Positions 32,852 to 36,272 of a DNA stretch of 64,000 bases are shown here, in pieces; the first letter of the stretch is position 1; each line of letters opens with the position of its first letter. This stretch comes from Luteimonas salinisoli (GTDB lineage Bacteria > Pseudomonadota > Gammaproteobacteria > Xanthomonadales > Xanthomonadaceae), in assembly GCF_013425525.1 (NCBI RefSeq), contig NZ_JACCKA010000049.1, positions 1 through 64,000 on the forward strand. The letters run 5' to 3'. The notes below the pieces were generated by a model that saw only the letters and a program-made list of their open reading frames with translations, was not told the DNA's origin and ran no database searches. A program made the translations under genes and the position numbers.

Positions 32852-32961
32852 GCGGGACGAGCGGCCAGGTCGGCGGCACCGCGGCGGCAGCCGCGGCGGA
32901 ACCGCTGATTATGCGACAGCGGCCGTCCCGCGGCCGCCCGGGCCGGCGATCGCGCGGCCAT

Positions 32962-33438
32962 TCACCCGCGATGCGGCGCGTCGCGGCGCGGCGGGCGCGC
33001 GATCACCGCCACGGTCAGGCGCGAAATGCAGACCAGGCGTCCGGTCGCGTCCTCGATGCGAATTTCCCAGACCTGGGTGCTGCGGCCGATGTGGAGCGCG
33101 CGTGCGGTGCCGGTCACGCTGCCCTCGCGGACGCCGCGCAGGTGGTTGGCGTTGATCTCGATGCCGACGCAGCCCTGACCCTCGTCCACCGACAGCATCG
33201 CGGCGGTACTGCCCAGGGTCTCGGCGAGCAGCACCGAGGCGCCGCCGTGGAGCAGCCCGTAGGGCTGGTGGGTGCGGGCGTCGACCGGCATGGTCGCGCG
33301 CAGGAATTCGGGGCCGAGTTCGGTGAAGACGATGCCCAGCAGCTCCATCGCGGTCTCGCGCGAGAGCGCGTTGAGCGAGTCGAGGCTCGCGCTGCGGCGG
33401 AATGGCGAGGCGCTGCCGGCGGGTGTGCTCTGGTCCAT
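32962..33438 (-). CDS. PaaI/MenI-type hotdog-fold thioesterase
   Basis: 158 aa. The hotdog core shows PVDARTHQPYGLLHGGASVLLAETLGSTAA, in which the G-x-x-HGG motif marks the catalytic region with the Glu of AETLG, and VGIEINANHLRGVREGSVTG. This pattern fits the acyl-CoA thioesterases that hydrolyse aryl- or DHNA-CoA (YdiI/MenI-like). The substrate is not determined. The start lies 20-odd residues before the fold. It is separated by 76 bases from the tandem small peptide genes upstream on the same strand. Confidence 0.9.
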   Translation of the reverse strand: MDQSTPAGSASPFRRSASLDSLNALSRETAMELLGIVFTELGPEFLRATMPVDARTHQPYGLLHGGASVLLAETLGSTAAMLSVDEGQGCVGIEINANHLRGVREGSVTGTARALHIGRSTQVWEIRIEDATGRLVCISRLTVAVIARPPRRDAPHRG

Positions 33439-33514
33439 GGCGCGCACGATAGCCGAGCCCGTCCCCGGGCCGCCATGCGGAACGGCGGCGCGTGTCGGGG
33501 CGCCGCGGCCGCGG

Positions 33515-33718
33515 TCAGGCGCAGCGGAAGCGCGGCGCGGGACTGCGGTCGAGATGGTCGAGGCAGTGGCGATCGCGGGCGTAGCCGCTGCTGCTGCCGT
33601 AGCCGACACCGAAGTCGCGCGGGCGGTACTCGCGGCGGCCGCCGGCCGGCTGCGGTGCCGAGGCGCCGCCGTGCTGCGGGGTAGGAACCGGGGTCTGGAA
33701 GTGGACGTGGATGTTCAT
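33515..33718 (-). CDS. Small peptide 1 with GYGSSSGYA core and RFRCA end
   Basis: 67 aa, third in transcription order of a tandem set of three. Pro/Ala/Gln-rich leader-like N-terminus (MNIHVHFQTPVPTPQHGG), then RDFGVGYGSSSGYARDRHCL and the C-terminus PAPRFRCA. The stretch RDFGVGYGSSSGYA is identical to peptide 3. Two cysteines occur only here. No signal peptide or membrane helix. No family is recognised. The set looks like a precursor-peptide array (RiPP-like or a small secreted/regulatory peptide), but no maturation enzyme is adjacent. Confidence 0.65.
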   Translation of the reverse strand: MNIHVHFQTPVPTPQHGGASAPQPAGGRREYRPRDFGVGYGSSSGYARDRHCLDHLDRSPAPRFRCA

Positions 33719-33759
33719 GGGGGGACTCGGGGGAAAGCCGGTGGGGAGGGCCGCGGGAA

Positions 33760-33915
33760 TCACGCCACCCGGAAGCGGGCGGCCAGGGAGGCGGCGGCGT
33801 AGCTGCGGGGGGAGGCGTAGCCACTGCTGCGGCCGTAGCCGGTGCCGGCGGAACGGGCCTGGGGCTGGCGGGCGGAGTGCGGGCGGCTGGACGACTGGAC
33901 GGCGAGGGCGTTCAT
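33760..33915 (-). CDS. Small peptide 2 with GYGRSSGYA core and RFRVA end
   Basis: 51 aa, middle gene of the tandem set. MNALAVQSSSRPHSARQ is followed by GTGYGRSSGYASPRSYAAAS and the end LAARFRVA. It aligns without gaps to peptide 3 from the GYG core to the end (GYGxSSGYAxxRxYAxASL..RFRxA). It lies 31 bases after peptide 3 and 41 bases before peptide 1. A ribosome-binding region beginning ATTACCCC and containing GGAG is shared with the gene for peptide 3, evidence that whole cistrons were duplicated. Confidence 0.7.
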   Translation of the reverse strand: MNALAVQSSSRPHSARQPQARSAGTGYGRSSGYASPRSYAAASLAARFRVA

Positions 33916-33946
33916 GGTGGTCTCCGGGGTAATGACGGGCGGTGGA

Positions 33947-34126
33947 TCAGGCGAAGCGGAAGCGCGGCGACAGCGAGGCGCTGGCATAGCGGCGGGCGTT
34001 GGCGTAGCCGCTGCTGCTGCCGTAGCCGACGCCGAAGTCGCGCACGCGGGGTTCGGGACGGGCCGGGGCCTGGACGGCGCGGGCGACGTTGCGGTACTCG
34101 TTGCGGGTGGCGGTGCTGGCGTTCAT
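33947..34126 (-). CDS. Small peptide 3 with GYGSSSGYA core and RFRFA end
   Basis: 59 aa, the first gene in transcription order. MNASTATRNEYRNVARAVQ leads to RVRDFGVGYGSSSGYANARR and ends YASASLSPRFRFA. It has a good AGAGGAG ribosome-binding site 7-8 bases upstream. The region before it (34141-34260) is the most AT-rich in the neighbourhood and probably holds the promoter. The product is cationic, rich in Ser, Gly, Tyr and Arg, and lacks any known domain. Confidence 0.7.
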   Translation of the reverse strand: MNASTATRNEYRNVARAVQAPARPEPRVRDFGVGYGSSSGYANARRYASASLSPRFRFA

Positions 34127-34277
34127 GGGTCACTCCTCTGGGGTAATAGTGCTGCGGTGTGCTGGTAGACTACAACACCACGCAAAAACGGCATGTGCCG
34201 GAAGTCACCCCATCGACGACCCCAATCCAAGTGATTGATTTATTTGAATTCTGCGGCGGCACCCGCCGACGAACGGT

Positions 34278-36272
34278 CTACAGGATCGGCGCCAGGCCGG
34301 CCCCGAACGCGGTGAAGATCCGCGTCAGCACGCTCTTGATCCCGAGGTTGACCTCGGGAAAGTCCCCCACCGGCCGGTGGCATTCGCGAAAGCCCGGGTG
34401 GTCCGGCGGCAACGGCGCCGGGCACCCCGGCCCGGGCGCGAACTCGTAGCTGGTGGCGTAGCGGGTGGGCCACAGGTCGAACACCGGCAGGTGCTCGGAG
34501 ACCTTGGCCAGCGAGTACTCCAGTCCCGAGAACACCGGCGGCTTGTCGCGCCGCGCGATCACCCAGGAGTTGGCCGGCGCGATGTCGCGGCGGATGCTGG
34601 CGGCCAGCGCGCGGGCGAACGCCGGATCCTCGATCACCAGCGCGCTCTCGGTGTTGAGGTTGTCGCCGCGCGGGTCGAAGTTGTGGGTGCCCACCACCCC
34701 CACGCGCTCGTCGACCACCAGGGACTTGGAGTGCAGGCCGATGCGCACGCCGGCGCGCTGCAGCGGGACCCGCCTGTTCACGCCGATGCCGGCATAGCGC
34801 AGCGCCGAGTATTCGCGTTCGAGCGGCATGCGCTCGGACTGACGCGCGGCCCGGGCCTCGGGTCGGCCCCGCTGCCCGGCGCCGGAGCCGCTCGGATGCA
34901 TGTGCACCTCGGTTGGAACGGAGCCCCGGTAGCCGTCGTCGCGGGTGCGGATGTCGACGGTGCCGTCCGGGTTCCACTGCACGCCCACCGCGCCGGTGGC
35001 GTCCAGGTCGATCGGCGCGTCCTCCGGGAACGGCTTGTATTCGTAGATGTTGAAGCCGAAGTCGCGCAGGTAGCGGCGTTTGTACTTGTACGAGAGGGCA
35101 TAGGTGATGAAGGAATCGGTAGCCGCCAGGCTATTGGTCGAGATCACCACGCGCGGACCATCCGGGCGCGCGTGCAGCGCCTCGAACATCTCCTGCGCCG
35201 GCCGCGACAGCACCAGGTACGGGGTCTGCAGCAGCACCTCGTCGGCGGCCGATTCGATCAGCTCGCGCATGTGCACGGTCGAGGGCGCGATCTCCTCGTA
35301 GCTGCCGCCGTCCTTGTCCGGCGGATCGGCCACGTAGGCGGCGGCGCCGACCGGCAGCGCCGCCTGCACGAGACGCTCGTGCACCAGCAGCGGGTCGTCG
35401 GCATCGCGCGAGATCGCCTCCACCCGCGCAGGCACCGCATAGGGCGCGTGCGGCATCTCCGGCACGCCGCCGCGCAGCAGCCGCCGCGCGACGTCGCCGA
35501 GCGCGGCCACCGGCACGCTGCGGCGCGCGTGCCAGAACGCCTCGAAGTTCTCCTCCATCTCGCCGGCGACCGGGCCGGCGACGAGGATGTCGCGGTCGCG
35601 GAAGTTGTACTCGTCGTCCCAGTCGTAGTAGCGGTCCTGGTAGTTGCGTCCGCCGGTGATCCCGACCATGCCGTCGACCAGCAGCACCTTGTTGTGCATC
35701 CGCCGGTTGAGCTGGCGCCAGCAGCAGGCCGCCGCCAGCAGGTACTGGGGGTAGCTGATCCGCGCACGACCCAGCACCGGGTTGTAGACGCGCAATTCGA
35801 AGTTGGCGTGCGCCGCCGCCAGCGCCGCGAGGGTGTCGACGTGGCGCAGCGCCGCCAACTGGTCGACCAGCACGCGCACGCGCACGCCGCGACGGGCCGC
35901 GCCGAGCAGCTCGTCGAGGGTGAGGTGGCCGGCGTCGTCCTCGTCGAAGATGTAGGTCTGCAGGTCGATGCTGCGCTGCGCGCTGCGGATCAGGTCGAGG
36001 CGCGAAATCAGCGCGTCCTGGCCGTAGTCGAGCAGCAGCGCGTAGTGCCGCGGCGCCCCCGGTGCGCTCTCGGCGAATGCGCGCGCACCGAGCTGGCGCA
36101 GCGGCGACGGCCTGGCGCAGGCGGTCGACGGCCGGTCGCAGTCCACCGCCGTCTCGCGCGCCTGCGCGACGATGTGGGTGGCCTGGTCGCGCTGCAGCGG
36201 CGACAGCCCGGCGCAGCCGGCCGCCGACAGCGCCAGCAGTCCCGCCAGCAGCATCCGCGGCGCGCGCTTCAT
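34278..36272 (-). CDS. Phospholipase D family lipoprotein (cardiolipin synthase-like)
   Basis: 664 aa. Signal peptide with lipobox LSAAGC (Cys20). Two complete HKD (HxKx4D) motifs, HNKVLLVDG and HSKSLVVDE, are about 280 residues apart, each in the usual context (GGRNYQDRYYD and GTHNFDPRGDNLNTES). These form the single active site of PLD-superfamily transphosphatidylases. It probably hydrolyses or rearranges phospholipids at the outer membrane or periplasmic face. Its ATG overlaps the YceI stop; SixA-YceI-PLD are one operon. Confidence 0.92.
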   Translation of the reverse strand: MKRAPRMLLAGLLALSAAGCAGLSPLQRDQATHIVAQARETAVDCDRPSTACARPSPLRQLGARAFAESAPGAPRHYALLLDYGQDALISRLDLIRSAQRSIDLQTYIFDEDDAGHLTLDELLGAARRGVRVRVLVDQLAALRHVDTLAALAAAHANFELRVYNPVLGRARISYPQYLLAAACCWRQLNRRMHNKVLLVDGMVGITGGRNYQDRYYDWDDEYNFRDRDILVAGPVAGEMEENFEAFWHARRSVPVAALGDVARRLLRGGVPEMPHAPYAVPARVEAISRDADDPLLVHERLVQAALPVGAAAYVADPPDKDGGSYEEIAPSTVHMRELIESAADEVLLQTPYLVLSRPAQEMFEALHARPDGPRVVISTNSLAATDSFITYALSYKYKRRYLRDFGFNIYEYKPFPEDAPIDLDATGAVGVQWNPDGTVDIRTRDDGYRGSVPTEVHMHPSGSGAGQRGRPEARAARQSERMPLEREYSALRYAGIGVNRRVPLQRAGVRIGLHSKSLVVDERVGVVGTHNFDPRGDNLNTESALVIEDPAFARALAASIRRDIAPANSWVIARRDKPPVFSGLEYSLAKVSEHLPVFDLWPTRYATSYEFAPGPGCPAPLPPDHPGFRECHRPVGDFPEVNLGIKSVLTRIFTAFGAGLAPIL

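Follow-up and report, generated by a model that had tools for sequence, protein, structure and literature searches.

A tandem array of small basic-protein genes in Luteimonas salinisoli is a probable unlinked target of a YtrA-type regulator

An array of three small genes in Luteimonas salinisoli is best explained, with a probability that we put at roughly 0.6 from comparative sequence analysis, as a second target, unlinked to the first, of an envelope regulon controlled by YtrA; the products of the array would carry a docking tail at their C-terminus. The array lies in a 64,000-nucleotide stretch of DNA (contig NZ_JACCKA010000049.1, positions 1 to 64,000; hereafter the window) and consists of unannotated small basic-protein genes of a widespread, previously undescribed family. 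Proteins of ~60 aa, present in roughly two out of three genomes sampled from the bacterial family, thus gain a candidate regulator, a candidate operator and a tail shared with DUF proteins, and because these three elements are now concretely proposed, the function of the protein family becomes directly testable.

Results

All three consecutive minus-strand ORFs (59, 51 and 67 aa) that had been named in a preliminary description of this DNA are present. Peptide gene 1 (P0001; 33947..34126, minus strand) encodes a 59-aa protein with a pI of 11.4 and the tail RDFGVGYGSSSGYA...PRFRFA. It is followed after 31 nt by peptide gene 2 (P0002; 33760..33915, minus strand; 51 aa, pI 11.9, tail GTGYGRSSGYA...ARFRVA) and, after a further 41 nt, by peptide gene 3 (P0003; 33515..33718, minus strand; 67 aa, pI 9.8, tail RDFGVGYGSSSGYA...PRFRCA). 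Comparison of the three peptides bears out the common GYG(S/R)SSGYA core and the RFRFA, RFRVA and RFRCA ends, and this agreement is far beyond chance. The core had been described as the conserved element; it is indeed conserved, but the unit is a whole tail that starts about five residues ahead of GYG, extends to the stop codon and reads RDFGVGYGxSSGYA…RFRxA in the array peptides. In agreement with the earlier statement that no described family has this motif, the three peptides matched no family in Pfam (0 families, no PF06803 domain) or in NCBIfam. A 71-row peptide profile found no match among PDB chains, and three spellings of the motif were not found in the literature searched. No further copies were detected in the L. 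salinisoli genome at E < 0.01. The next-best genomic match (L004, E 0.075) does not contain the GYG motif in its translation.

Relatives are common in the bacterial family. A profile built from the three rows matched 201 of 297 of its genomes at E <= 0.01, a count that pools short peptides and the tails of longer proteins. An order-level sample searched with the 71-row profile at E <= 0.001 gave matches in 22 of 250 genomes, 18 of them from the same family and 4 from two sister families, and several of these matches sit in open frames of ~215 codons that resemble DUF1232 proteins. Scanning a collection of 84,980 species yielded 113 pattern stretches. Confirmed relatives account for 74 of these loci, mostly from Luteimonas, Lysobacter, Arenimonas, Thermomonas and other Lysobacteraceae, with MAGs and entries under broader or odd labels making up the rest. 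The preliminary description had made its proposal dependent on homologs that preserve the core, and such homologs are provided by the 201 genomes and the 74 confirmed loci. As these loci were fetched with the pattern [VT]GYG[SR]SSGY, conservation of GYGxSSGY in the 71-member alignment is partly built in; positions outside the pattern that are conserved are alignment columns 58 (R), 61 (G), 80 (Y), 90 (F) and 91 (R). The alignment comprises 71 of 81 distinct peptides, the 10 omitted ones being mostly from Arenimonas, and three segments, two of them plausible peptides and the third an antisense artefact, were dropped from the peptide set for want of a usable ATG.

Constraint on the array follows the reading frame and is confined to one part of the proteins. 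For this comparison the tail was defined as starting five codons ahead of GYG and extending to the C-terminus, and the N-terminal half was treated as the head. The closest relative, L038 from Luteimonas endophytica, has an orthologous array with gene-for-gene correspondence. Between it and the array of the window, 23.0 synonymous and 6.0 nonsynonymous differences were counted in the tails (pN/pS 0.09), and 11.5 and 28.5, respectively, in the heads (pN/pS 0.86). Against the more distant L039 (L. suaedae), the values are 0.49 for the tail and 0.89 for the head. Over 3000 random pairs drawn from 110 distinct gene tails, the ratio was 0.66 in frame compared to 1.04 and 1.12 in the shifted frames. 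The suggestion that the conserved pattern might fit RNA structure rather than codons is contradicted by this codon-level constraint and by the lack of any Rfam match at E <= 1 in positions 32900-34900. Taken as a whole, the codon comparisons indicate that the three ORFs are genuine protein-coding genes, and the low pN/pS of the tail next to a near-neutral head implies that the constrained unit is a protein tail behind a nearly free spacer.

The 71 members have a median pI of 11.2 and a median charge of +6.5, and conservation in their alignment falls mainly on specific G, Y, S, F and R residues. None of them contains a 19-residue window with a hydropathy above 1.6, which leaves the earlier suggestion of secreted or cell-surface peptides unsupported. 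AlphaFold2 predicts the window peptide to be unstructured (mean pLDDT 61.5, pTM 0.14). The residue before the last is a cysteine (RFRCA or RFRCG) in 32 of the 71 peptides and F, V or L in the others, and this cysteine is almost the only one in the peptide family.

The array occupies a genomic slot between a downstream gene for a 4HBT thioesterase (32962..33438, minus strand; labelled PaaI-type in the preliminary description) and an upstream gene for a PLD-domain protein (34278..36272, minus strand) that forms the other edge. The nearest genes of the window encode a thioesterase, an acyltransferase, a hydrolase, the PLD protein, a YceI protein and a histidine phosphatase, most of which recur in the relatives. 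Of the 74 loci, 59 have a match to the thioesterase, 58 to the acyltransferase and 50 to the PLD protein, counted as the best match anywhere in the locus with a few displaced or weak cases (L083, L100, L101). A DUF1232 query matched 26 of the 74 loci, either with the whole protein or with the tail only. Proteins of ~203 aa, 21 distinct sequences in all, end in the same tail, RRxRDxGxGYGxSSGY...WRPxxF. The DUF1232 (PF06803) domain, whose members we take to be YkvA-type proteins, was present in the three tail-bearing long proteins that were scanned. The genes for these proteins lie mostly in the same PLD-thioesterase slot, alone (for example in Thermomonas loci) or beside peptide genes. The window peptides thus resemble this DUF1232 subset in tail and mostly in genomic position but have no DUF1232 domain, and no DUF1232 protein was found in the L. 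salinisoli genome. In the AlphaFold2 model of a DUF1232 protein the tail is of low confidence and no docking site for it is apparent. A PDB fold search with this model gave nothing significant (best E 1.4), and neither DUF1232 nor YkvA appeared in the titles or abstracts returned by a literature search.

A candidate YtrA-type operator, GGTGTTGTAGTCTACCAGCACACC, which has the form GGTG-N16-CACC (34156..34179, minus strand), is located 29 nt upstream of the first start codon, and the boundary of the feature was extended to 34179 to take it in. Of 78 distinct arrays, 76 have the same motif ahead of their first peptide, 100-400 nt before the first GYG codon, although these arrays are related to one another and thus not independent. 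This count covers loci L001 and L009-L111, with each distinct 60-base stretch entering a single time and the antisense artefact of L071 ignored. The operator precedes only the first gene of an array and was found inside none. As a background, 88 GGTG-N16-CACC sites occur across the 1.09 Mb of L038-L111, array sites counted in. The motif is absent at L052 and L054, where the peptides adjoin a DUF1232 gene, and at each of the 12 scored loci that have DUF1232 only. At 15 of the 74 loci no gene of the usual five neighbours is seen, and each of these 15 has the operator. A simple sigma-70 scan of positions 33380-34300 found no promoter.

PMC6746942 cites GGTG-N16-CACC as the motif belonging to a GntR regulator of YtrA type in Xanthomonas citri. 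In the 4.5 Mb of the L. salinisoli genome, the extended motif occurs at two places only, the peptide array and C36:38716-38739. The latter site lies 490 nt before ytrA, which encodes a 123-aa GntR protein. Further genes of the ytrA operon encode an ABC ATPase, a putative permease whose PF13346 match stays below the cut-off, and two proteins with DUF2807/DUF4097 and DUF2884 domains, respectively. Extended sites were found in 270 of 297 genomes of the bacterial family, most of which show two. With the pattern reversed as a control, a single match, in a single genome, was found among the 297. These distributions argue that the peptide array is very probably a member of a YtrA-type GntR regulon.

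The site also accompanies ytrA in other genomes. It was found within 500 nt of the gene in 16 of 19 genomes read by hand, the exceptions being G022, G053 and G128, with G024 left out because its ytrA lies at a contig end. In 30 loci around ytrA the start of the gene was recognised in 22, of which 16 have the strict site; in L204 one end base of the site is changed, and a relaxed match in L202 is not the operator. Among 54 genomes that were chosen by hand and not at random, 51 encode a YtrA-like protein at E <= 1e-15, namely 26 of 27 genomes with the operator and 25 of 27 without a detectable one. Identity was 67-100% in 50 genomes and only 44% in G187, and 24 of the 25 matches from operator-less genomes reach 67% or more. 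As 25 of the 27 operator-less genomes keep a YtrA-like match, operator loss does not track regulator loss, and the sites of these genomes may have drifted beyond one mismatch.

In genomes without a peptide match (with G006 showing one at E 0.01 only), the second operator often precedes a different gene. Its product of ~137-158 aa has a signal-peptide-like start and TLxxVxVRPSxEQ repeats, which to our eye resemble the start of TonB-receptor plugs. The strict repeat expression was found in 11 of 29 loci from 15 genomes (L149, L151, L156, L158, L159, L160, L162, L169, L170, L172 and L176), and L148 and L152 were recognised by eye; the other operator sites of this second set lie at the ytr operon.

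Discussion

We propose that YtrA would repress the array until the envelope is disturbed; if it behaves like its Bacillus subtilis counterpart, the trigger may be a perturbation of the lipid II cycle. A derepressed cell would then make short, arginine-rich and unstructured cytosolic proteins in which the variable N-terminal half would serve as a spacer only, and the GYGxSSGYA...RFRxA module would be a linear docking tail for a partner. DUF1232 proteins would carry this tail in cis, and the peptides would supply it in trans. For the docking role of the tail as such, we regard the odds as about even.

The proposed regulon shares several features with YtrA regulons of other bacteria, as far as the cited accounts describe them. 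In B. subtilis, YtrA controls ytrGABCDEF and ywoBCD, its own operon includes a small membrane protein, and exposure to lipid-II-cycle inhibitors induces the ytr operon, according to PMC12772383. As in the B. subtilis and Xanthomonas regulons so described, the gene for the GntR regulator of L. salinisoli shares an operon with ABC transporter genes and follows a small-protein gene. There are two probable targets, of which one is unlinked, and the operator is a long palindrome of the kind cited for X. citri. The difference to B. subtilis, within the same account, lies in the unlinked target, which consists of GYG-tail peptide arrays instead of ywoBCD. PMC4730234 places HpaR1 of X. campestris in the YtrA subfamily and reports that at gumB it uses a different site, with inverted repeats 1 bp apart, and activates rather than represses. 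The form HpaR1/YtrA is used for the two Xanthomonas regulators in PMC7831014. No title in the literature searched related to YtrA in Lysobacter.

The preliminary description had likened the array to arrays of RiPP precursors. On such a reading the tail would be a core peptide that an enzyme encoded elsewhere modifies. Small tandem ORFs with a common motif are indeed reminiscent of such arrays, the tail offers a Ser-Ser pair and, in 32 of 71 members, the penultimate cysteine, and the genome encodes a LanM-type gene. In most RiPP families, though, it is the leader that stays conserved while the core changes. Here the end of the protein is conserved and the would-be leader drifts nearly neutrally, with head pN/pS values of 0.86 (L038) and 0.89 (L039), and the same tail also terminates a 200-aa DUF1232 protein. 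No maturase is seen among the nearest genes of the array or among the recurring neighbours, which encode PLD, thioesterase, acyltransferase, YceI and histidine-phosphatase proteins. A maturase search that covered YcaO and LanC-like proteins found no YcaO match in the L. salinisoli genome and a single LanC-like match, the LanM-type gene (964 aa, DUF4135 and LANC_like), which is unlinked to the array. The LanM locus (G000:C84:110553-111635; L217:4071-7160) includes a candidate lanthipeptide precursor of its own directly upstream of the LanM-type gene, a Cys-rich DUF6229 protein of 62 aa. Given the near-neutral would-be leader, the missing YcaO and the adjacent candidate substrate of the LanM, we consider a RiPP array highly improbable. 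It is also very unlikely that the genes encode nascent-chain arrest peptides whose C-terminus stalls the ribosome to control downstream genes. Such a role would agree with a conserved part that reaches the C-terminal end and follows amino acids, but the tail is kept in each of three consecutive genes, the arrays change their genomic context and yet retain the operator, and a leader function is hard to reconcile with a tail that terminates a long DUF1232 protein.

A more general reading is that of basic small proteins binding RNA, DNA or membranes, with the arginine-rich chain rather than a specific partner accounting for function. The pI values of 9.8-11.9 in the window, the median pI of 11.2 and charge of +6.5 among the 71 members and the predicted disorder are in line with it, and because the peptides are strongly basic, binding of nucleic acids has to be kept in mind. 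However, conservation of specific G, Y, S, F and R residues exceeds what basicity needs, even if the GYGxSSGY part of it is built in by the fetch pattern, and we consider this reading unlikely overall. Spurious ORFs or an RNA element might be expected in GC-rich DNA with many overlapping ORFs; with codon-level constraint, no Rfam match and conservation throughout the family, their likelihood is close to nil.

A more specific version of the docking proposal, which we consider rather doubtful, treats the tail as a portable docking code. A burst of free tails on envelope stress would compete for or occupy the cytosolic partner of the DUF1232 tail. In unstressed cells the tail would be carried only by DUF1232 proteins, where present, and YtrA would release several paralogous tails at once that mimic the parent tail. 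These would have been detached from the parent protein by tail duplication, and lineages like L. salinisoli would have lost the parent and kept the inducible tails. Since the DUF1232 gene is absent from the L. salinisoli genome, a decoy there would have to act on a shared partner. If true, this would constitute an inducible control of an envelope or lipid process by tail mimicry.

Other genera of the bacterial family place a repeat protein with a signal-peptide-like start behind the same type of operator that precedes the peptides in the window. This suggests that YtrA regulons of the bacterial family combine one fixed target, the transporter operon of the regulator itself, with one exchangeable unlinked target. 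The exchangeable target may be the real effector of the YtrA response, the purpose of which is still unclear even in B. subtilis.

The surroundings of the ytr operator in L. salinisoli hold two further genes. A glutathione peroxidase gene (PF00255; L117:9312-9881) is divergent from the operator, and ORFs resembling glutathione peroxidase are found at the same position in several other genera; given this divergent placement and its retention, the gene may share the ytr operator. Between the operator and ytrA lies a small-protein gene (L117:8754-9230; corresponding loci L186-L215), and the products that were read have an N-terminal hydrophobic stretch. At 19 of 22 loci, PYFSF or a near variant is present in the ORF that terminates immediately ahead of ytrA, a count that is not independent evidence because the ORF was recognised by that same expression. 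This C-terminal motif is vaguely similar to the PRFRFA end of window peptide 1.
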